The notes under the pieces: generated by a model
Told to the model about the DNA's origin: nothing
Databases searched by the model: none
The model's input: the letters and a program-made list of their open reading frames with translations, nothing else
DNA from: an uncultured Eubacteriales bacterium
GTDB lineage: Bacteria > Bacillota > Clostridia > Christensenellales > CALVMC01
Assembly (NCBI GenBank): GCA_949296455.1
Contig: CASFOZ010000010.1
Coordinates: forward strand, 1 to 34,453
DNA: 34,453 nt
Direction: 5' to 3'
Program-made: the position numbers and the translations under genes
Part shown: one piece after another, positions 1 through 12,646 of the stretch
Position numbering within the stretch: position 1 is the first letter of the stretch
Layout: every line of letters begins with the position of its first letter

Positions 1-167
1 ATAGAATATGTTTAATAATGTAAATATTTAAATTTATTAAACAAAATCATATATTATAGTCATATTATAAATACATTTGAAAGATAAGTCAATATCGGCT
101 TTCAATCGAAATTAAAATATTTAATATTTTGAAATAGAAAATCGGATATATAATTTTAAAACAGCGA
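1..167. other. AT-rich non-coding end of window
   Basis: This stretch lies downstream of the LRR surface gene that reads leftward. I see no open frame, RNA gene or clear hairpin-plus-T-tract terminator. The transcription end of the SipW operon may lie beyond the window edge. Confidence 0.5.
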
Positions 168-1985
168 TTATTCTTTCAAAGTAAAATATCCGGGTGAAGA
201 AGTTCCGCCATCGATACGGGCATAGGTTTTGTCGGTGTAGGAAGAGCTATAGGTCGTTCCCGCACCGCCGACAAGATTTGAGCAGTTAGAAAACATGGTA
301 TTGGAACTAGTTACTTTATTTGTATTAAAACTGTTGCTTGCATATATGGTTTTGAGATTTGAGCAGTATTGGAACATACTAAACATATTTATAACATTAC
401 TTGTGTCGAAACTGCTTACATCAAGAGAAGTGAGAACTCTGCAAAAATAGAACATATAAGACATATATGTAACCTTACTTGTGTTAAAACTGCTTACATT
501 AAGGGAAGTTAGAGCAGAGCAGGAAGAGAACATACTAGACATATCTGTAACATTACTTGTGTTGAAACTGCTTACATTAAGGGAAGTTAGAGCAGAGCAG
601 GAAGAGAACATATAAGACATATTTGTAACATTACTTGTGTCGAGCATGGTAAGGTTTTCGATAGAGGTAAGGCTTTTAAGGCTTTTGAAAAACTCCGACG
701 AGTTTGGATTTGCTATAAAGGTGTCGCCTGATTTTGTTAAAATGTAGGCTACCGTTCCTACTTTGTAAAGGGAATAGGTGCCTGTTCCTGCGGTATCAAC
801 GGGGGTAGGGGTTGCAGAGGAAACGGCGGAAGAGTAGTCTGAGTATTTGCCGAAAATTACTTTTGTTGTATCGGTTCCGATAAGTGATTTCATTTCAGAA
901 CCCGTTTTAAGAATGTAAATAGCTGTAAAGTAGCCGGGTGAAGAAGTTCCGCCGTCGATACGGGCATAGGTTTTGTTGGTGTAGGAAGAGTTAAAGGTCG
1001 TTCCCGCACCTCCGACAAGTTTTGAGCAGTTACGAAACATATTAGTGGAATTGGTTACTTTATCGGTATTAAAACTGTTGCTTGCATATATGGTTTTGAG
1101 ATTTGAGCAGTAAGAGAACATATAAACCATATTTGTAACATTACTTGTGTCGAATGAGCTTAAATCAAGAGAAGTGAGAGCAGCGCAATAAGAGAACATA
1201 CAAGACATATTTTTAACATTACTTGTGTTGAAACCGCTTACATCAAGAGAAGTGAGAGCGTTGCAGTAATCGAACATATAAGACATATCTGTAACATTAC
1301 TTGTGTCGAAACCGCTTACATCAAGAGAAGTGAGAGCGTTGCAGTAATCGAACATATAAGACATATCTGTAACATTACTAGTGTCGAAATCACTTAAATC
1401 GAGAGAAGTGAGCGAGCTGCAGCGATAGAACATCCAAACAAAAGTATTTACCGAACTTGTATCGAAACTGCTTACATTAAGGGAAGTGAGAGACCTGCAG
1501 CTATAGAACATATGAGACATATCTGTAACATTACTTGTGTCGAGCATGGTAAGATTTTCGATAGAGGTAAGGCTCTGAAGGTTTCTGAAAAACTCCGACG
1601 AGTCGGGATTTGCTATAAAGGTGTCGCCGTAATTTGTTAAAATGTAAACTACCGTTCCTACTTTGTAAAGGGAATAGGCGCCCGTTCCTGCTGTATCAAC
1701 GGGGGTAGGGGTTGCAGAGGAAACGGCGGAAGAGTAGTCTGAGTATTTGCCGAAGATTACTTTTGTCGTATCGGTTCCGATAAGGGTATTAAGCTCAGAG
1801 CCGGTTTTTAAAGTGAAATCGGTTTGTGAAAATATATTGGTAACATTGTTGCTTTTATCGGAAAAGAAGGAAAGGGTATCGCTGCTTAAAAAGGCAAGCA
1901 GGATAAGAGAACAAAAAAGCGTCACGATAAGTAATATCGTAATTAACTTTTGCTTTTTCAATTTTCTTTCATTCGTTTTTTCCAT
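168..1985 (-). CDS. DUF285 (BspA-like) leucine-rich-repeat surface protein with SipW-type signal
   Basis: A 605-residue exported protein. Residues 12-34 form a hydrophobic segment followed by a LAFLSSDTLSFFSD...NVTNIFS stretch that resembles the signal of SipW-processed (TasA/camelysin-type) proteins. The body is two homologous halves, about 58-358 and 359-605. Each starts with an LKTGSE...LIGTDTTKVIFGKYSD segment, continues with 26-residue repeats of the form LTSLDVSxFDTSNVTDMSxMF, and ends GGTSSPGYF. These repeats are typical of DUF285/BspA-like surface LRR proteins, which are often adhesins. It is the last gene of the operon headed by the signal peptidase at 4752 (33 bases after the preceding gene), so it is probably processed by that peptidase and displayed with the small exported proteins. 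No LPXTG or other wall anchor is visible. The ribosome site (AAAGAG) is weak. Family is confident; ligand unknown. Confidence 0.88.
   Translation of the reverse strand: MEKTNERKLKKQKLITILLIVTLFCSLILLAFLSSDTLSFFSDKSNNVTNIFSQTDFTLKTGSELNTLIGTDTTKVIFGKYSDYSSAVSSATPTPVDTAGTGAYSLYKVGTVVYILTNYGDTFIANPDSSEFFRNLQSLTSIENLTMLDTSNVTDMSHMFYSCRSLTSLNVSSFDTSSVNTFVWMFYRCSSLTSLDLSDFDTSNVTDMSYMFDYCNALTSLDVSGFDTSNVTDMSYMFDYCNALTSLDVSGFNTSNVKNMSCMFSYCAALTSLDLSSFDTSNVTNMVYMFSYCSNLKTIYASNSFNTDKVTNSTNMFRNCSKLVGGAGTTFNSSYTNKTYARIDGGTSSPGYFTAIYILKTGSEMKSLIGTDTTKVIFGKYSDYSSAVSSATPTPVDTAGTGTYSLYKVGTVAYILTKSGDTFIANPNSSEFFKSLKSLTSIENLTMLDTSNVTNMSYMFSSCSALTSLNVSSFNTSNVTDMSSMFSSCSALTSLNVSSFNTSKVTYMSYMFYFCRVLTSLDVSSFDTSNVINMFSMFQYCSNLKTIYASNSFNTNKVTSSNTMFSNCSNLVGGAGTTYSSSYTDKTYARIDGGTSSPGYFTLKE
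489..644 (-). repeat. second 78-bp tandem DNA repeat in LRR gene
   Basis: The segment starting at 489 is repeated from 567 with a 78-base period and only a few differences. It lies in the C-terminal half of the LRR protein, showing that unit expansion occurred independently in both halves. Confidence 0.8.
1240..1395 (-). repeat. 78-bp tandem DNA repeat inside LRR gene
   Basis: Two consecutive 26-codon LRR units are almost identical at the DNA level: the segment from 1240 recurs from 1318, a 78-base period. This implies a recent unit duplication or gene conversion. Confidence 0.85.
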
Positions 1986-2018
1986 AGCGCACTCTTTAAA
2001 TTACCTTTATAAGTTTTT

Positions 2019-2534
2019 TTATACCGGCCAGCCTGTTGCGTCGAAGGGGGTGGAGCCGTTATTTTCGCTTGCCACGCCGTAAACGGTGATTTTCAGTTCT
2101 ATGATTTTACCTATAAAACTGCTTGAGATATTTTCGCCCTTAAAATGCATTTTTGTGAACAACGCATTTGTGGTATTGTCTTTTGTCAAAGCAGTATTGT
2201 AGTAGTAATATCCGTCTTTAAAGGTCCAGGAGGTATCGGATATATTGAATTCGATATAATTGTCTATATCGGCAGTATTACCGTCTATTGTCAAAGAAAG
2301 GGCGATTTTAAGATAAGCCGAAGTATCCCCGGTATTTTTAACCGTCACAATATTGTCGACGGTATCGCCGGGAAGGATGGTCTGCTCCTTTGCCGTCTGA
2401 AAAAGATTAAGTTTTACATTGCCTGAAACGATAACATCGATATTCGGAATCACTGTGTAAAGCGTAGTCATTGTAAATGATAAAAATATCACCAATATCA
2501 ATGTTACCGATACTAACAGTACCTTTCTTTTCAT
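2019..2534 (-). CDS. small exported SipW/TasA-associated-type protein
   Basis: A 171-residue protein with an N-terminal hydrophobic segment (about 5-28), then a beta-rich ectodomain. A GNVKLNLFQT stretch is followed by a PGDTVDNIVTVKNTGDTSAY motif, which resembles camelysin/TasA-like and other alternate-signal proteins found next to SipW peptidases. Unlike its two upstream neighbours it lacks a clear GTVAYxT-type cleavage motif, so it may keep its membrane anchor and act as a base or assembly partner; that is inference. It has a strong ribosome site (AAGGAGG). It is separated from the upstream gene by 147 bases containing a 21-base palindrome, and from the LRR gene by 33 bases. Confidence 0.75.
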   Translation of the reverse strand: MKRKVLLVSVTLILVIFLSFTMTTLYTVIPNIDVIVSGNVKLNLFQTAKEQTILPGDTVDNIVTVKNTGDTSAYLKIALSLTIDGNTADIDNYIEFNISDTSWTFKDGYYYYNTALTKDNTTNALFTKMHFKGENISSSFIGKIIELKITVYGVASENNGSTPFDATGWPV

Positions 2535-2621
2535 CGGCAGACCTCCTTTTTATAATTTTAATTACAATAAACGATTAAATTATATTTAAGTTTAACAGTT
2601 TACTGTCGGCTTTTTATTGTA

Positions 2622-2642
2622 TAAACTTAAAGTTTAAGTTTA
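2622..2642. promoter_or_regulatory. 21-base perfect palindrome within SipW operon
   Basis: TAAACTTAAA-G-TTTAAGTTTA is a perfect inverted repeat around position 2632, in the largest internal gap of the operon. A related half (TTAAGTTTAA) lies near 2586. It could be a regulator-binding site or a weak RNA hairpin. No T-tract follows, so I do not call it a terminator. Confidence 0.4.
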
Positions 2643-2681
2643 TTATTTGACATAAAAGTATATTCAGATTATCCCTAAAAC

Positions 2682-3326
2682 CTATTTCCAATACAATTCG
2701 AAAGCTTCTTTTGCGCTGCTTCCGGTATTTGCGCTTTGTATTGCGTCTGCGCTTATTATGAGATTAAAATTGGATATCGCATAAATATCTTCGGTTGTGA
2801 ATTGCGTAGGGATAATAATGTACTCGAACAGTGTGGCGGTATTTTCGGCTTCGAGGACATTATTTAAATAAAAGACAAAGGTAAGGGTGTCCGATTGGCT
2901 GTCATAAGAGACCTCATCGGACAAAGTCCATACTTTATCGTCATATCCGCCGAATATCTCAGTAATTTCTATTCCGTACTTATCGCAGGATATTATCCAT
3001 TGATTAGCGTTTGTCAGACTTACAATCATTCGTATCCATTGTCCGTACAAACCGGTGTTTTGTATAGTGGGGTCTTTTTTAAATATATCGCCCGGTTTTA
3101 CATCGTAGTAAGTCTGTCCGCTTTCGGTTTGTCCGCTATCAATAGTTTCGTATATTCTGATTGAAAATATTTCGTCAGGACTTACAGGGTTTTCAGAGTC
3201 GTAGCTTGCAACCATGAAACGGTTTGTAATGCTGTCCTTCGCTGTCAGAAATGCGACCGTACCTATTGAAATCAGAACGAGTATCAATACTGAGACGGCA
3301 ATTATAAATATCCGCCTTTTGTTCAT
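2682..3326 (-). CDS. SipW-dependent exported protein (TasA/camelysin-like)
   Basis: A 214-residue secreted protein. Residues 5-25 are hydrophobic and run into GTVAFLTAKDSITNRF, the characteristic alternate signal cleaved by SipW-type peptidases. The mature part contains a DVKPGDIFKKDPTIQNTG motif near residues 77-94 and a predicted beta-sandwich composition, as in camelysin/CalY/TasA relatives that form extracellular fibres or associate with them. The start at 3326 is preceded by AAAGGT. It lies 16 bases after the preceding gene in the operon. Fibre formation is inferred from the family and not visible in the sequence. Confidence 0.8.
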   Translation of the reverse strand: MNKRRIFIIAVSVLILVLISIGTVAFLTAKDSITNRFMVASYDSENPVSPDEIFSIRIYETIDSGQTESGQTYYDVKPGDIFKKDPTIQNTGLYGQWIRMIVSLTNANQWIISCDKYGIEITEIFGGYDDKVWTLSDEVSYDSQSDTLTFVFYLNNVLEAENTATLFEYIIIPTQFTTEDIYAISNFNLIISADAIQSANTGSSAKEAFELYWK

Positions 3327-3342
3327 ATTTTACCTTTTTTAA

Positions 3343-4065
3343 TTATTCTACAAAGCAAGCGGTAAACGCAGATTGAGCATTTTCAAATCCGCCTGCCTGA
3401 CAAACATAAGCTTCGAATTTAAGCTGACCGAGTTGTTTTCCGTCCGAACCGGTATCGGTGTCGTTTAACGAGGAAGCCGCAGTTATTTTATTATCGGTTA
3501 ATATACCGACATCGACAAGGTCGTCACTTGCAGCACCCGTTTGCACGGCATTTTTATAGCAGTAAACCTTTTCGCCGGCTGCAAGACCGCTTACCGATAT
3601 TTCCGTCCAGTCGCCGGTTACGCTATATGTAAAGTTATTGCTTGTGGTATCGGTTATTTTGATAAATACATAAACTGAAACATCTTCAACTATGTTAAGA
3701 GTAAGTTTCGGATCTTTCGGAATTTCCAAGCCGGGAACGACTTTATCGTATGTGTTTTGCAGTATGCGGGTATTTGCCGTATTCGATAAAGTGTAATTAC
3801 CGTTAGCATATTCGGCTTTGCTTTCAAGCAGATAAAAACCTGCCGTAATAATACTTGAAACGCTTGGATCTGCATTAGTTCCCGCCGCAGGGTTGGTAGG
3901 GTCTACAAGCTGTCCTCCGCCTGCTGCAATAAAGGTATTTACAAGGGCTTTACTTCCGTTAACCGAGGCTTGCAGATAAGCTACCGTTCCGAGTGCGCCT
4001 ATCGAAAAAATAAGCACAACGGCAAGTACTATAAACAAAGTTTTTTTGTTGACTTTTGTTTTCAT
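3343..4065 (-). CDS. SipW-dependent exported protein (TasA/camelysin-like), probable major subunit
   Basis: A 240-residue secreted protein directly downstream of the signal peptidase (33-base gap). The signal is a hydrophobic segment at about 9-25 leading into GTVAYLQASVNGSKALVNTF, a SipW-type cleavage region. The mature part has a PGLEIPKDPKLTLNIVEDVSVYVFIKI-like stretch (about 109-135), which matches the proline-glycine then N/D plus beta-strand pattern of alternate-signal proteins. It carries the best ribosome site of the operon (CAGGAGG, 7 bases before ATG). Its position next to the peptidase and its strong translation signal suggest an abundant structural subunit. No closer family was recognised. 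Confidence 0.78.
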   Translation of the reverse strand: MKTKVNKKTLFIVLAVVLIFSIGALGTVAYLQASVNGSKALVNTFIAAGGGQLVDPTNPAAGTNADPSVSSIITAGFYLLESKAEYANGNYTLSNTANTRILQNTYDKVVPGLEIPKDPKLTLNIVEDVSVYVFIKITDTTSNNFTYSVTGDWTEISVSGLAAGEKVYCYKNAVQTGAASDDLVDVGILTDNKITAASSLNDTDTGSDGKQLGQLKFEAYVCQAGGFENAQSAFTACFVE

Positions 4066-4098
4066 TTTAACCTCCTGTTTTTATATCAATTTAATTTT

Positions 4099-4752
4099 TT
4101 ATTTTTTATCCAAGTAATTTACTTGATTTTCCCTATTTAAATTTTCTGTTTCGGTTTTCGTATCGGGCAGGGGAATCGATTCTTTATCTTCTGTTACCGA
4201 TTTATGTTCCGCACCGTTCGATTCTTTTGGTTGCGGTGATTTTTTATCGCATTTACCTTTCATAAATATTTCAGGTAAAATCATTAGTAATATAATCGAT
4301 AAAATTATTATTATAACTACGATTATTCCGGGCGGGTTGCTTATAAAGTTTGAAACATAACCTAATTTAGGTATTGAAAATTCAACCGTGCCGAGAACAT
4401 TGTTATAATTTACCGCTTTATCATTATTTTCGTTAGCGTCTCCTTTTGTTATAAAGCTTTTGTTTTCAGTATCTATTTCCACGACTCTGTGGGTAATTAT
4501 TACGTCGGTGCCGTCTGCTTTATAAGTGATTATATCGCCCGTTTGTATTTCTTTAAATTCTGCGCTTTTTATATATATTAAATCGCCTGCGCTGAATTGA
4601 GGGGACATCGAGTCCGATAAAACAGTGTACGGCACATATCCGAAAATGCGAAACCCTGCAAATACAATCACAGTCAATACTATTACCGCTAATATAACCC
4701 AAGTAAATATTGACCATATTTTTTTCAATAATTTAATTTTATTTTTATACAT
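4099..4752 (-). CDS. sipW: signal peptidase I, ER/SipW type
   Basis: A 217-residue membrane serine protease of family S26B. The catalytic Ser is S48 in LSDSMSP. The general base is His88 in ITHRV, where ordinary bacterial type I peptidases have Lys; this Ser-His arrangement defines the SipW/ER class. D105 in TKGDANENND is the conserved downstream acidic site. Transmembrane segments lie at about 14-36 and 140-163. A hydrophilic tail of about 50 residues (168-217) follows and is not part of the core family. It heads the operon with three alternate-signal substrates and the LRR protein, so it presumably cleaves them. Its own ribosome site is weak, while the promoter upstream is near consensus. 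Confidence 0.93.
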   Translation of the reverse strand: MYKNKIKLLKKIWSIFTWVILAVIVLTVIVFAGFRIFGYVPYTVLSDSMSPQFSAGDLIYIKSAEFKEIQTGDIITYKADGTDVIITHRVVEIDTENKSFITKGDANENNDKAVNYNNVLGTVEFSIPKLGYVSNFISNPPGIIVVIIIILSIILLMILPEIFMKGKCDKKSPQPKESNGAEHKSVTEDKESIPLPDTKTETENLNRENQVNYLDKK

Positions 4753-4822
4753 TTCTTTATTGCATATTCGGTTTAATTTAGCCGCACAGTAAACTTTAAA
4801 TTAACTGCTATACTATATATAT

Positions 4823-4851
4823 ATTATAAATATTTTGTTATTTTAAGTCAA
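4823..4851 (-). promoter_or_regulatory. promoter of SipW operon
   Basis: On the minus strand, TTGACT (4846-4851) and TATAAT (4823-4828) are separated by 17 bases. This gives a leader of roughly 65 bases before the signal peptidase start. Confidence 0.75.
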
Positions 4852-4974
4852 TATCTAATAATTGGAAATACTTAAAAAATACTTTTTTTGACAAATTTTT
4901 ATTAAATTTTGCAAAGTAAAAAATAAAAGTTGCAAATATTTTTTTATCTATTTCAAATTTGTTGTTATTAAAGT

Positions 4975-5140: not shown

Positions 5141-6403
5141 TTATTGACTTTGTTCGTAGTCAATTATTTTTTTATCTTTATTGGATTTTATAATTGCCGT
5201 TACCAAAATCAATCCGAGAAGGGGAATTATCGCTGCGCAAAGTATTCCGATACGCATGGAAAGCTGAGTTGAAGTTATTCCTAAATTTTCCGCTAAATTA
5301 ATTATTTCTTTGCACTCTTCCAAATTATCGGAAATCAGAGTTACGCCGGTAGGACCAAGAGCAGCTCCCAAATCGTTTGCAAAATAAAGCAGTCCGAAAA
5401 GACTTACTCCTGCGCCCGAAAAAAGATTCCCTGCTATCGATACTGCACCCGGCACTATTAAACTTATCGAAAACCCTATTATCATACACGAAATAACGGT
5501 AAGAGCGGTATTAGGGCTTATTGCAATTAATATAAAACACAAAAACGATATTATCATTCCGTATAACATTGTTTTTTCGAGATTGATTTTCAAACAGTAT
5601 TTTGAGTAAAGTATACGACCAAGAGCCAGCATTACGGCAAAGCCGAATATACCTAAAATATCGCCTAAAATTTTACTTATCCCGAGTCCGCTTTCAAGAT
5701 ATGCCGAACCCCATTGGGAAATTATCTGTTCGAGTGCGCCGCCTGTAAAAATAATTACAAAAAGCATAAGAAAATGTTTGTTTTTTATGAAACTTCTTAT
5801 AGGCTGTCTTTCTTCTTTCGGTATCGTGCAGTTTAACGGGACAAAGGAAAAAAGAATCAGACAACTTAACGGGAATATCAGCCAGACAGAAGTTATTATC
5901 TGCCAATTTTGCGCACCTATAAAATATACAAGCAGGGTGGTAATAAGTACTACCGACGCCTGTCCCCAGGCAAGAAAGGAATGAAGAAAACTTATAGATT
6001 TACAGTTATGTTCTTGTGATAGCGATGATATAATGGGACTTAAAAGAACTTCTAAAAGACCTCCCGCTACCGAAAAAATTGCCGTTCCTATTATCATTCC
6101 CGTATAAACGCAGTTTGCAAATATTATGGGCGATAAAATAAAAATCAAAAAACCGCAGATTGCAAGTAAACTTGCACCTATACAAAATTTTCTGTAACCG
6201 AATCTGTCCACAAGGGGACCGAATAAAATATCGGACAGCGTTTGCGCAAGAAAGTTTACAAGGGTAATTATTCCTAATTGAGTTATGCTTAGCCCGAATA
6301 TCTCTTTCAAAGGAATAAAAAGTATCGGAATTAAGTTAATTATTATTGCTTGCGTGAAATTACCCAAATAACAGGCGGCGGCAGTTAATTTAAAATTTTT
6401 CAT
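5141..6403 (-). CDS. MFS transporter
   Basis: A 420-residue integral membrane protein with about 12 hydrophobic segments. The MFS motif A equivalent, GPLVDRFGYRKF, lies in the loop between TM2 and TM3 (about residues 62-73). A second-half counterpart includes GRILYSKYCLKINLEKT after a LGIFGFAVMLALGR segment. The overall pattern (SQEHNCKSISFLHSFLAWGQASV in TM4-5) is like sugar/fucose-type or other gut-clostridial MFS permeases, but the substrate cannot be assigned. The start has GGAGAAC upstream. It is a single gene between two tRNA-Leu genes; the downstream tRNA has its own promoter overlapping the gene's 3' flank. Confidence 0.88.
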   Translation of the reverse strand: MKNFKLTAAACYLGNFTQAIIINLIPILFIPLKEIFGLSITQLGIITLVNFLAQTLSDILFGPLVDRFGYRKFCIGASLLAICGFLIFILSPIIFANCVYTGMIIGTAIFSVAGGLLEVLLSPIISSLSQEHNCKSISFLHSFLAWGQASVVLITTLLVYFIGAQNWQIITSVWLIFPLSCLILFSFVPLNCTIPKEERQPIRSFIKNKHFLMLFVIIFTGGALEQIISQWGSAYLESGLGISKILGDILGIFGFAVMLALGRILYSKYCLKINLEKTMLYGMIISFLCFILIAISPNTALTVISCMIIGFSISLIVPGAVSIAGNLFSGAGVSLFGLLYFANDLGAALGPTGVTLISDNLEECKEIINLAENLGITSTQLSMRIGILCAAIIPLLGLILVTAIIKSNKDKKIIDYEQSQ

Positions 6404-8025: not shown

Positions 8026-8319
8026 ATGGCTTTTATTAAAAGATATTCTACTATAAGAAAGGGCGGTATTAATTTTATAGGAAACACTTTGGGATTAAGC
8101 AAGATAACTTATACTTCCGAAATAAAAAATACCGGAGATATTGTTTTATTTAATACGATTTTTCAGGATGATATTCCTGAGGGAACTTCCTTTGTTTCTG
8201 GTTCTGTATTTATCGATTCAATTAATTATCCTTCTTACAATCCTCAAACGGGATTCCCTCTTCCAGACCTTGCGGTAGGGGAAAGCGCTACGGTTGAATT
8301 CGATGTAGTGGTTATTTAA
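8026..8319 (+). CDS. DUF11-type domain protein, N-terminal part
   Basis: A 97-residue protein with a strong ribosome site (AAAGGAG, 6 bases before ATG). After a short GGINFIGNTLGLSK start, residues about 28-97 match the beginning and middle of a DUF11 (conserved-repeat, Ig-like) surface domain: YTSEIKNTGD, the PEGTSFVSGSVFIDS strand, and LAVGESATVEFDVVV. The domain's usual final strands (an ISNTA...SNTV pattern) are absent here but appear in the next open frame, which starts two bases after this stop in a different frame. It therefore looks like one domain interrupted by a frame change. No signal peptide is visible. Role unknown; such domains are usually on surface or spore proteins. Confidence 0.7.
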   Translation: MAFIKRYSTIRKGGINFIGNTLGLSKITYTSEIKNTGDIVLFNTIFQDDIPEGTSFVSGSVFIDSINYPSYNPQTGFPLPDLAVGESATVEFDVVVI

Positions 8320-8321
8320 TT

Positions 8322-8561
8322 ATGGAATCAATTATATCGAATACCGCAGTTTTAATAGATAATTCCTATTTGCCTTCTATTATTTATCCAAGCAATACCG
8401 TAAGTACGATTATTAAAGATACAGAAAGAAAACCTGTTTATATTCCTGTAGAGTACTGCGAAAGTCCGTGTTGTTGCAAAAAAAATTGCTGTTGTAAAAA
8501 AAATCTGAATAGTTGCGGTTTTTGTAAGTGTTTTTTATTATGTAAAGTATTCAGAATTTAA
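8322..8561 (+). CDS. DUF11-type C-terminal strands plus Cys-rich tail
   Basis: A 79-residue frame starting at ATG 8322, two bases after the preceding stop and in a different frame. No ribosome site is visible. Residues 4-31 (ISNTAVLIDNS ... YPSNTVSTII) match the last strands of a DUF11 domain whose first strands are in the upstream frame. The tail holds 11 cysteines in about 36 residues, including a repeated CCCKKN block, which suggests metal binding or disulfide cross-linking. The pair could be a frameshifted gene, a programmed frameshift, translationally coupled subunits, or an assembly error. A strong terminator follows at 8568. Confidence 0.6.
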   Translation: MESIISNTAVLIDNSYLPSIIYPSNTVSTIIKDTERKPVYIPVEYCESPCCCKKNCCCKKNLNSCGFCKCFLLCKVFRI

Positions 8562-10156: not shown

Positions 10157-12646
10157 ATGAAAAATACCGCTAGTATGATGAAAAGAAACACATCTTCTTC
10201 TAAGAAGAAAAAGTCTGCTCAACGCAGTAAATCAACAGCTTATGTGACTCCGATTATCGGTTTGGGAACAATTGCCGAGGATTATGTTAAACAGTTTGCA
10301 GACATGGAAAGTAAACTGATTGAACTTAAAACGCAAAGAGAAAACAAACAAAAAAATGAAGAAAACAGTTTCAAAAATAAAAGTTTGTCAGAGCAGAGTA
10401 CAGTCAGCGAACTCAGAAAGGAAAATAACGCAAAAGTTAAAGATTTGCGTACTAAACTTGCCGACAAACTTAAAAAACTCGATACCGATAAGATTTTTCA
10501 AAACAATAAAATCGATTTGGAATTGGAAAAAGAAATTAATGCCGTTAAACTTGAAAAAGCAAATCTTGCAAACAGCAAGAAGAATTATACTGCCGAGTAT
10601 GAGTCGGAAATTTCCAAAATAAGCGCAAAAAATAAAGAAGATATTAAAAACTGCAACGATTATCTTAGTGAGCAGGAGAGCATTACCGCTTCGAAAGTGG
10701 AAGAAATCAAAAAGGTTTTAGAAGGCACCAAACAGATTTTCCAGGATAATTATGAGAAGAAAAAAGGTAAACTTCGTGAAGAAATTATGGATTTGCAGGC
10801 AAAATATTTTCTCGATATCAAAAACGGAAAAAGCGTTCTTGAAAATAAAATTGCTTCTTTGTCTAAAAGAGAAAACGACGATATCGAAAAAGAGCAGGCA
10901 AAGCTTAACAATCTTAAAATAAAAATCGATAATCTCAAAATACAAATCGAAGACGGAAAGAAAAAGAAAAATAAAGACGATATACAAAAACTCAAAGATG
11001 ATTTAAAGCAACTGAGCGCAAACTATTCCGCTATGGAAAAAGAAACAAATGCTTTCATAAAGGAAAGCAAAAGCAGCACGGCTGCTCAGATTGAATCTCT
11101 TAAAAAGAAATGGTCTGACGAAGAACAGAAATTAAGAGAAAATCTTATAACCAAAGTAAATGCTTTAAATACTAAAATCGAAGAACAGAAATATGAAATG
11201 GAATATAAAGAATTCAAATATTGTGTCGATAAGGAAATTGCGGAAAATAAAATTTCAGCCATGACTTTCACAGACGAGCAAAACCGTAAAATCCGTATGA
11301 CCGAAATCGAAAAAGAATTCGCTTTGGGAAAAGAAAAAATCAATGCTGATTTCAACCTGAAGAACAGGGAAAACCAACTCAACGAATTTGACGCCGACGC
11401 AAAAGAAAAAAGAGCCAAAGCCGAAGCCGATTATGCTAAAAAAATCAATACGTCCGAAAATCAGTATGCTAAAAAAGAAGCGAATTATTTATTCAATACC
11501 GAACATAAAAAGATTAATTTTGAAATTAATAAGGCCAATATTTCGACAAAACAGAATATTTCATGTCTTGAACAGGATATGAAAAAGAATATTGCTTTGC
11601 TTAGGGTTAATTCCTTTAAATTTTTGGACGACAGCAACTTAAAGAACTTTGAGTCTATTTGCGCATTTAAGCAGGAAAGATTCAATCAGGCAGCCGTTGT
11701 GTTCAAGGATAAAATAGAAGAATATCTTTCCGCTTATGAAAAAAGGTTCGAAGTATTGATAAAATATCATTCGCAGGAAGCAAATGAAGCCATTCGTGCC
11801 GAACAGTACATATTCGACCAGAAAGCGCTTATTATCAAGGAAGATATTGCCGTTGCAGAAAAAGACGGGGATACAGACCTTGCCGACGCTCTTAACAGAG
11901 AACTTGAAAAACTTACTCAGATTCTCAATGACAGAATAGCCGAAATCAAATCTGTTCACGAAGATATTTTAGGTTATTATAACGGTTTTCTTACGGCAGA
12001 GAAGGAAAGGTGCGAGCGTGACTTGCAGAATTTTGAAAAACTCGGAGAAGATGTTCAGGCAAAACTCGAAAGTTTAAGCAACAGCGCTAAAAACAGCAGA
12101 GAAGCTGTGGCAGAATTTCAGACCGAATATGAAAATGTAATAAGCGATAATATAGAAAAAGTTAAGCAGAATTTAATTTCCGAATCGGATAGAGAACTTG
12201 ACGAAGAAACAAAAGAATACGCACAAGTATGTGCAGAGTATGACGACGAAAAAGAAAAGTTCACTGCCGAATATGAAGAAAGTAAAAATAATGCTTTATC
12301 CGATAAGAATGTTGTCTTTGACGAATTAGAAAAAGAACGCACTCTTCTTGCCGAAAAAACAGATAAGGAAAACAGCGAAGACGAACAGAATATTGTTAAA
12401 CTCGAAGCTCAGTACGACGCAATCATTAAGAGCAGTAGCAGTGCTATCGAACAGAAGGAAAAAGAGTCGGCTGCAAACGAAAAAACTCTTAAAGATAAAA
12501 GCGATAAAGAAGTCAATGCGGCTAAAAAGGCTATGGAAAACAAAATTAAAAATCTTCCTAAAATCGAGAAGAAAAAACTTGCAGTATTGTTAAAGAAGGC
12601 TGAAATCGAACAGGATAAAGATTGGTGGGAAGTTTTGGAATTTTAA
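10157..12646 (+). CDS. long, nearly proline-free coiled-coil protein, unknown function
   Basis: An 829-residue protein with AGGAGTG 6 bases before ATG and its own promoter. The N-terminus (1-28) is rich in Lys and Ser, then a short hydrophobic YVTPIIGLG patch. From residue 33 to 800 there is no proline and the composition is dominated by K, E, A, L, N, D and Q, with heptad-like spacing throughout; this is a single very long coiled-coil rod. The only prolines are P32 and P801, at the ends. The C-terminus is short and aromatic (KDWWEVLEF). There is no signal peptide, Walker motif, hinge or SMC head. It could be a cytoplasmic filament, scaffold or spacer protein. I do not recognise a named family, and coiled-coil similarity to SMC or myosin-like proteins would be uninformative. 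Confidence 0.85.
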   Translation: MKNTASMMKRNTSSSKKKKSAQRSKSTAYVTPIIGLGTIAEDYVKQFADMESKLIELKTQRENKQKNEENSFKNKSLSEQSTVSELRKENNAKVKDLRTKLADKLKKLDTDKIFQNNKIDLELEKEINAVKLEKANLANSKKNYTAEYESEISKISAKNKEDIKNCNDYLSEQESITASKVEEIKKVLEGTKQIFQDNYEKKKGKLREEIMDLQAKYFLDIKNGKSVLENKIASLSKRENDDIEKEQAKLNNLKIKIDNLKIQIEDGKKKKNKDDIQKLKDDLKQLSANYSAMEKETNAFIKESKSSTAAQIESLKKKWSDEEQKLRENLITKVNALNTKIEEQKYEMEYKEFKYCVDKEIAENKISAMTFTDEQNRKIRMTEIEKEFALGKEKINADFNLKNRENQLNEFDADAKEKRAKAEADYAKKINTSENQYAKKEANYLFNTEHKKINFEINKANISTKQNISCLEQDMKKNIALLRVNSFKFLDDSNLKNFESICAFKQERFNQAAVVFKDKIEEYLSAYEKRFEVLIKYHSQEANEAIRAEQYIFDQKALIIKEDIAVAEKDGDTDLADALNRELEKLTQILNDRIAEIKSVHEDILGYYNGFLTAEKERCERDLQNFEKLGEDVQAKLESLSNSAKNSREAVAEFQTEYENVISDNIEKVKQNLISESDRELDEETKEYAQVCAEYDDEKEKFTAEYEESKNNALSDKNVVFDELEKERTLLAEKTDKENSEDEQNIVKLEAQYDAIIKSSSSAIEQKEKESAANEKTLKDKSDKEVNAAKKAMENKIKNLPKIEKKKLAVLLKKAEIEQDKDWWEVLEF

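Follow-up and report, generated by a model that had tools for sequence, protein, structure and literature searches.

The locus described here raises the question of why an operon of the kind that exports TasA-like fibres should end in a gene for a large leucine-rich repeat (LRR) protein. The window analysed is the whole stretch of 34,453 nucleotides that forms the start of contig C10 in the 1.38-Mb genome (G000) of an uncultured Eubacteriales bacterium. Its minus strand carries, in this order, sipW for a signal peptidase, the genes c1, c2 and c3 for small exported proteins, and an LRR gene, separated by gaps of 33, 16, 147 and 33 nt. The best explanation, held with about even confidence, is that the operon makes TasA-like surface fibres and ends in the gene of a diversifying LRR adhesin, which SipW would process and which would cap the fibre, probably via c3.

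All five genes listed in the first-pass annotation are present, and gene calls and family matches bear out its description of a peptidase, two signal-bearing TasA-like proteins, a third related protein and an LRR protein. The peptidase (217 amino acids, positions 4099-4752, minus strand like all features of the operon) passes model TIGR02228 with 113.4 bits (E 9e-33, cut-off 51.85) and misses the Bacillus-specific model NF046067 (95 vs a cut-off of 190). Direct reading places a catalytic Ser in SDSM and a His, instead of Lys, in ITHRV, and on these grounds the enzyme is classed as a SipW-type signal peptidase I (S26B, Ser/His). It is the only SipW-class peptidase found in the genome. The LRR protein (605 amino acids, positions 168-1985) is a DUF285/PARCEL protein made up of two leader-plus-repeat modules, with 229.1 bits against PF03382 (DUF285, cut-off 25) and 345.7 bits against TIGR02167 (PARCEL repeat, cut-off 30) in 12 stretches. 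Its structural model has a confident LRR fold, most repeats having a predicted local distance difference test score (pLDDT) of 75-95, and the best Foldseek match is the Faecalibacterium LRR surface protein 4gt6 (E 4e-6), in addition to other LRR proteins. The model shows a helix at residues 2-34 and a mostly strandless segment of low confidence at residues 30-75; no TasA-like sandwich is found in it, and inspection of the sequence gave no C-terminal anchor.

The LRR protein had been proposed to carry a SipW-type signal of its own. A profile made from 25 cargo signals of other genomes was run on 711 N-termini. The c2 protein (214 amino acids, positions 2682-3326, putative signal GTVA/FLT) and the c1 protein (240 amino acids, positions 3343-4065, putative signal GTVA/YLQ) matched with E-values of 2e-7 and 8e-6, while c3 (171 amino acids, positions 2019-2534), which has a hydrophobic N-terminus, gave no match among these N-termini, as expected from the earlier remark that it lacks a clear cleavage motif. 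The LRR protein, read as TLS/FFSD, ranked 7 of 711 with an E-value of 0.13, a match that is weak although above background, and the corresponding LRR protein of genome G135 ranked 9 of 711 (E 0.16). All but one of the proteins ranked above the window LRR protein are SipW-operon cargo or obvious SipW-signal proteins, and because almost all higher-ranked N-termini are thus SipW-type, the candidate signal of the LRR protein (DTLS followed by FFSDKSNNVTNIF) is weak but credible. The LRR N-termini of genomes G135, G147 and G075 are of AKY/GKY type, like the AKY-style signals of their own cargoes, and the window cargoes and LRR protein have AYL/AFL/SFF-style signals. Since the style is shared per operon, the signal of the LRR protein tracks the cargo of its own operon.

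The combination of genes is not restricted to the window. The same five-gene operon, the LRR signal motif included, is present in the sibling genome G001 (uncultured Clostridia bacterium, CALVMC01), the only genome in which a scan of the genome contig collection found it. Among 396 genomes of the order, DUF285 was found in 33 and a SipW-class peptidase above cut-off in 171. In G135 (L068), G147 (L070), G075 (L074) and G316 (L071), SipW is grouped with a DUF285 LRR protein and with small exported cargo of TasA-like or other type, so that the search for the same gene order in relatives traced the grouping, with both siblings included, to five families of the order. Of the DUF285 genes fetched, 5 of 23 in this order and none of 43 in other orders lie at most 2.5 kb from a SipW gene on the same strand, and a simple Poisson estimate puts the chance of at least five SipW-linked genes among the ~45 DUF285 genes of the order at ~2e-7. 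No paper linking DUF285 or BspA-like LRR proteins to SipW or TasA/camelysin was found in the open-licence literature.

The terminal position of the LRR gene has its counterpart in other SipW operons. In six of them a member of the c3 subfamily immediately precedes the final large exported protein, which has InlB repeats (L112, 1120 amino acids), a vWA domain (L113, 1024 amino acids; L119, 1066 amino acids) or a CHAP/SH3 hydrolase (L120, 774 amino acids), is a protein of 523 amino acids (L116) or is cut by the contig end (L117). The slot behind c3 is held by the LRR protein in the window. In two distant genomes, G076 and G485 (the latter from another order), a single polypeptide moreover combines a c3-like domain with a DUF285 LRR; the c3 profile matches these fusions with E-values of 1e-4 and 1e-7, respectively, and neither the c1 nor the c2 profile matches them. 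The operon of the G485 fusion contains a c1 orthologue (33.7% identity, E 1e-21). Fusion of domains is commonly taken to indicate a physical or functional link. The recurring gene order, the signal type and the fusions in two genomes together give good support to the earlier proposal that the LRR protein is a cargo of the SipW/TasA-like system.

Profile searches show that c1, c2 and c3 are homologous to each other and to the cargo of other SipW operons. Family profiles built without the window sequences recover c1, c2 and c3 with E-values of 4e-21, 3e-32 and 1e-27. The known models give less: c2 scores 15.7 against PF12389 (cut-off 22.5) and 17.0 against TIGR04088 (cut-off 19), c3 scores 24.6 against TIGR04090 (cut-off 60; E 1.8e-5), and c1 has no match to any of these TasA/camelysin models. 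Being below the cut-offs, the three proteins are filed as TasA-like and not as family members; a score of 35.4, above the PF12389 cut-off, was obtained for the cargo L112:4116 of a related operon. The signal motif that c3 relatives keep (GTLAYFT) is lost in the window c3 (MTTLYTVIPNI), and no further c3 relatives were found in viral contigs. AlphaFold2 (AF2) models were made from alignments of two sequences only. The c3 model has a pLDDT of 58 and a predicted TM score (pTM) of 0.55, the beta-rich residues 59-131 being better, and Foldseek with this low-confidence model returned the TasA fibre 8aur at rank 2 (E 1.6e-3, prob 1.00), while the VIA aligner placed 8aur only at rank 48 (Z 6.1), amid many sandwiches. 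The structure check is thus weakly positive for a TasA-like fold of c3 without being specific to it.

Comparison of the window genome with its sibling by DNA identity and by rates of nonsynonymous (dN) and synonymous (dS) substitution shows where the operon changes. Identity in DNA is 96-99%, with dS of 0.04-0.09, for sipW, c1, c2, c3 and residues 1-145 of the LRR protein, whereas the first repeat block of the LRR protein (residues 146-325) has 77% identity. At the six face positions of the repeat (xx in M-xx-MF-xx-C-xx-L) protein identity is 23%, with dN 0.90, dS 0.26 and a dN/dS of ~3.5, a ratio that is only a rough guide because repeat shuffling inflates both rates; scaffold positions have 80% identity, dN 0.13 and dS 0.54. 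The length of the protein differs as well (605 vs 682 amino acids). The paralogue LRR2 (contig C11) has no such excess, its face being 89% identical with dN 0.055 and dS 0.125. Variable hydrophilic positions are a known trait of PARCEL repeats (PMC2996958), and the notable point is that the face positions change while the remaining operon is near-frozen. A diversity-generating retroelement was rejected as the source of the variable face, since no reverse transcriptase family match was found in the genome and the NNY-rich variable codons match codon usage. Beside the operon, the major facilitator superfamily (MFS) gene at 5141-6403 has a dS of 0.47 between the two C10 contigs, other genes ranging from 0.009 to 0.245. 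Because this silent-site divergence far exceeds that of the operon, the sequences hint at a recent exchange involving the operon.

How such an operon could work is suggested by analogy with Bacillus subtilis, where the N-terminal strand of TasA subunit n (AFNDI...) inserts into subunit n+1 (PMC9674648) and TapA, with the N-terminus AFHDI and a closed fold, donates only and starts filaments (PMC10151520). The window SipW would cut the alternate signals of c1, c2 and, most likely, the LRR protein, the last after TLS (residue 39). The freed N-terminal strands of c1 and c2 would polymerise the subunits through donor-strand exchange, as in TasA. The freed N-terminus of the LRR protein (FFSDKSNNVTNIF, approximately residues 39-53, codons at 1827-1871) may act as a donor strand like those of TasA and TapA, the resemblance of FFSD...NIF to AFNDI/AFHDI being judged by eye. 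Having a donor-like N-terminus and no TasA-like sandwich, the LRR protein would be a donor only and would therefore sit at one fibre end or on c3, either at the distal tip or beside c3 at the cell surface. The c3 protein, with an apparently uncut hydrophobic N-terminal helix, would serve as acceptor-only partner or membrane base, and is likely to be an adaptor or a membrane-held base. The LRR face diversifies fast, as expected for a ligand-binding surface. Export of the LRR protein and its linkage to the fibre are likely, a role as tip or side component is plausible, and cleavage, donor-strand insertion, end position and adhesion are inferred.

Several results weigh against this explanation. 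The signal match of the LRR protein is by itself poor, with Ser instead of Ala at the -1 residue, and many other SipW operons end in a large protein whose signal, by eye, seems to be of the ordinary Sec type. Most DUF285 proteins have N-termini of the ordinary Sec or of the prepilin-like kind and are encoded away from SipW loci, so that their linkage to SipW is a use of this common module specific to the lineage; the objection that LRR homologues occur mainly elsewhere is half correct. All of c1-c3 remain under the Pfam and NCBIfam cut-offs for TasA/camelysin, a PDB sequence-profile search with them gave no meaningful solved structure, and many other beta-sandwiches match the c3 model equally well or better than TasA. 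The 147 nt between c2 and c3 also make separate transcription conceivable.

These results can be read in other ways. The LRR protein could be a membrane-anchored adhesin with an uncut N-terminal helix (residues ~13-34), located beside an equally uncut c3 and apart from a fibre of c1 and c2. The weak cleavage signal in the LRR protein and its absence in c3, the helix at the start of the model and the c3-LRR fusions, which show that the pair can work as one unit, are all consistent with this, and it is the most serious of the alternatives, though rather unlikely when set against the SipW-style conservation of FFSD...NIF after the helix and against the fact that other LRR proteins bear the signal style of their own operon, which a plain anchor does not need. 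It is less probable that the LRR protein is exported, cut by SipW and then released or wall-bound as a soluble protein outside any fibre; such a fate fits the missing C-terminal anchor motif and the work of most DUF285 proteins outside fibre operons, but not the fact that two genomes join a c3-like domain and the LRR in one protein, nor the conserved order of c3 beside the terminal protein. Slightly more doubtful still is the absence of any fibre; c1-c3 would then be camelysin-like monomers at the surface, and the LRR gene a mobile PARCEL gene without functional relation to them that came to lie in the operon by insertion. Horizontal movement of PARCEL genes is known (PMC2996958), and the sub-threshold scores of c1-c3 would agree with this reading, but recurrence in five families, SipW-type signals on the LRR proteins and the fusions are unlikely for a random landing.

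The first-pass annotation assumed one promoter, and a strong promoter-like site is indeed present before sipW: a box GATATTGACTTA-N11-TATTTATAATAT (positions 4821-4855, a consensus match only) containing TTGACT-17-TATAAT at 4851-4823, with 11 of 12 consensus matches, ~70 nt upstream of the gene. No minus-strand promoter or terminator pattern was found in the c2-c3 gap, and a single transcript of the five genes from this site is possible. A second exact copy of the box (positions 62-96, minus strand; none expected in shuffles) lies just after the LRR gene and reads off the contig end, and the contigs of both sibling genomes break there. LRR2 (G000:C11), with an InlB-like repeat and DUF285, is likewise truncated by a contig end in both siblings and may be the next, co-regulated gene; the C10 and C11 contig ends have no common sequence.

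Some further observations concern related loci and the neighbourhood. In L071 a 414-amino-acid SipW-like peptidase with a long C-terminal tail (11129-12373, minus strand) overlaps the start of the DUF285 LRR gene by 4 bases. L126, L127 and L129 each contain two SipW genes and end in a large protein with a SKY/SRY-type SipW-like signal; these SipW operons possibly form a class of loci of their own. Prepilin-like N-termini (GITLIALVITIIVLLILAG...) are found on DUF285 LRR proteins of other Clostridia (L167 8367-10469, L177 7083-8432, L193 7615-9315, L190 4806-8702, L199 6128-10351), with family models below cut-off, an arrangement that points to type IV pilus-like proteins as carriers of the same LRR module there. 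In the window, a small DUF11-domain open reading frame (97 amino acids) is followed by a Cys-rich one of 79 amino acids (8026-8561, plus strand); the two may form a pair of spore or surface proteins.

The window operon shares with tapA-sipW-tasA of B. subtilis a dedicated SipW, TasA-like subunits that bear alternate signals, and a minor protein with a subunit-donor-like N-terminus, which is TapA there and the LRR protein here (PMC9674648, PMC10151520); it differs in having no TapA, three diverged sub-cut-off subunits and a DUF285 LRR protein in the proposed end-piece role. The sipW-bsaABCRSD operon of Clostridium perfringens likewise begins with sipW and encodes several secreted proteins (PMC7395162), and the BsaA model TIGR04090 gives weak matches to the window c2 and c3, but no two-component genes were seen in the window operon and no LRR gene is reported from C. 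perfringens. PARCEL/DUF285 surface proteins likewise have repeats in tandem, an invariant scaffold alongside hydrophilic positions that vary, and differing copy numbers (PMC2996958), whereas neither a tie to a SipW/TasA-like operon nor fusion to a TasA-like domain was found in the literature covered. The F-ENA endospore appendages with their tip fibrillum resemble the proposed arrangement in having a separate distal-end protein and a base anchor, and differ in their DUF4183 subunit, their collagen-like tip and in not being donor-strand exchanged (PMC11952670).

A wider reading, offered tentatively and with less confidence than that for the window itself, is that SipW/TasA-like fibres of Clostridia are modular adhesive pili in which the end-piece encoded by the terminal gene can be swapped between LRR, vWA, InlB-repeat and hydrolase types, here perhaps a donor-strand-only LRR protein with a ligand face under positive selection on a constant fibre. 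TasA-like fibres have been studied as a biofilm scaffold. If the explanation is true, such fibres would have a fast-changing LRR protein of their own, encoded in the same operon and joined in other genomes with a fibre-type domain; they would then be adhesive organelles aimed at specific targets, comparable to pili that bear tip adhesins. With constant fibre genes and an altered LRR face, the sibling pair lends itself to a natural experiment on the specificity for ligands.

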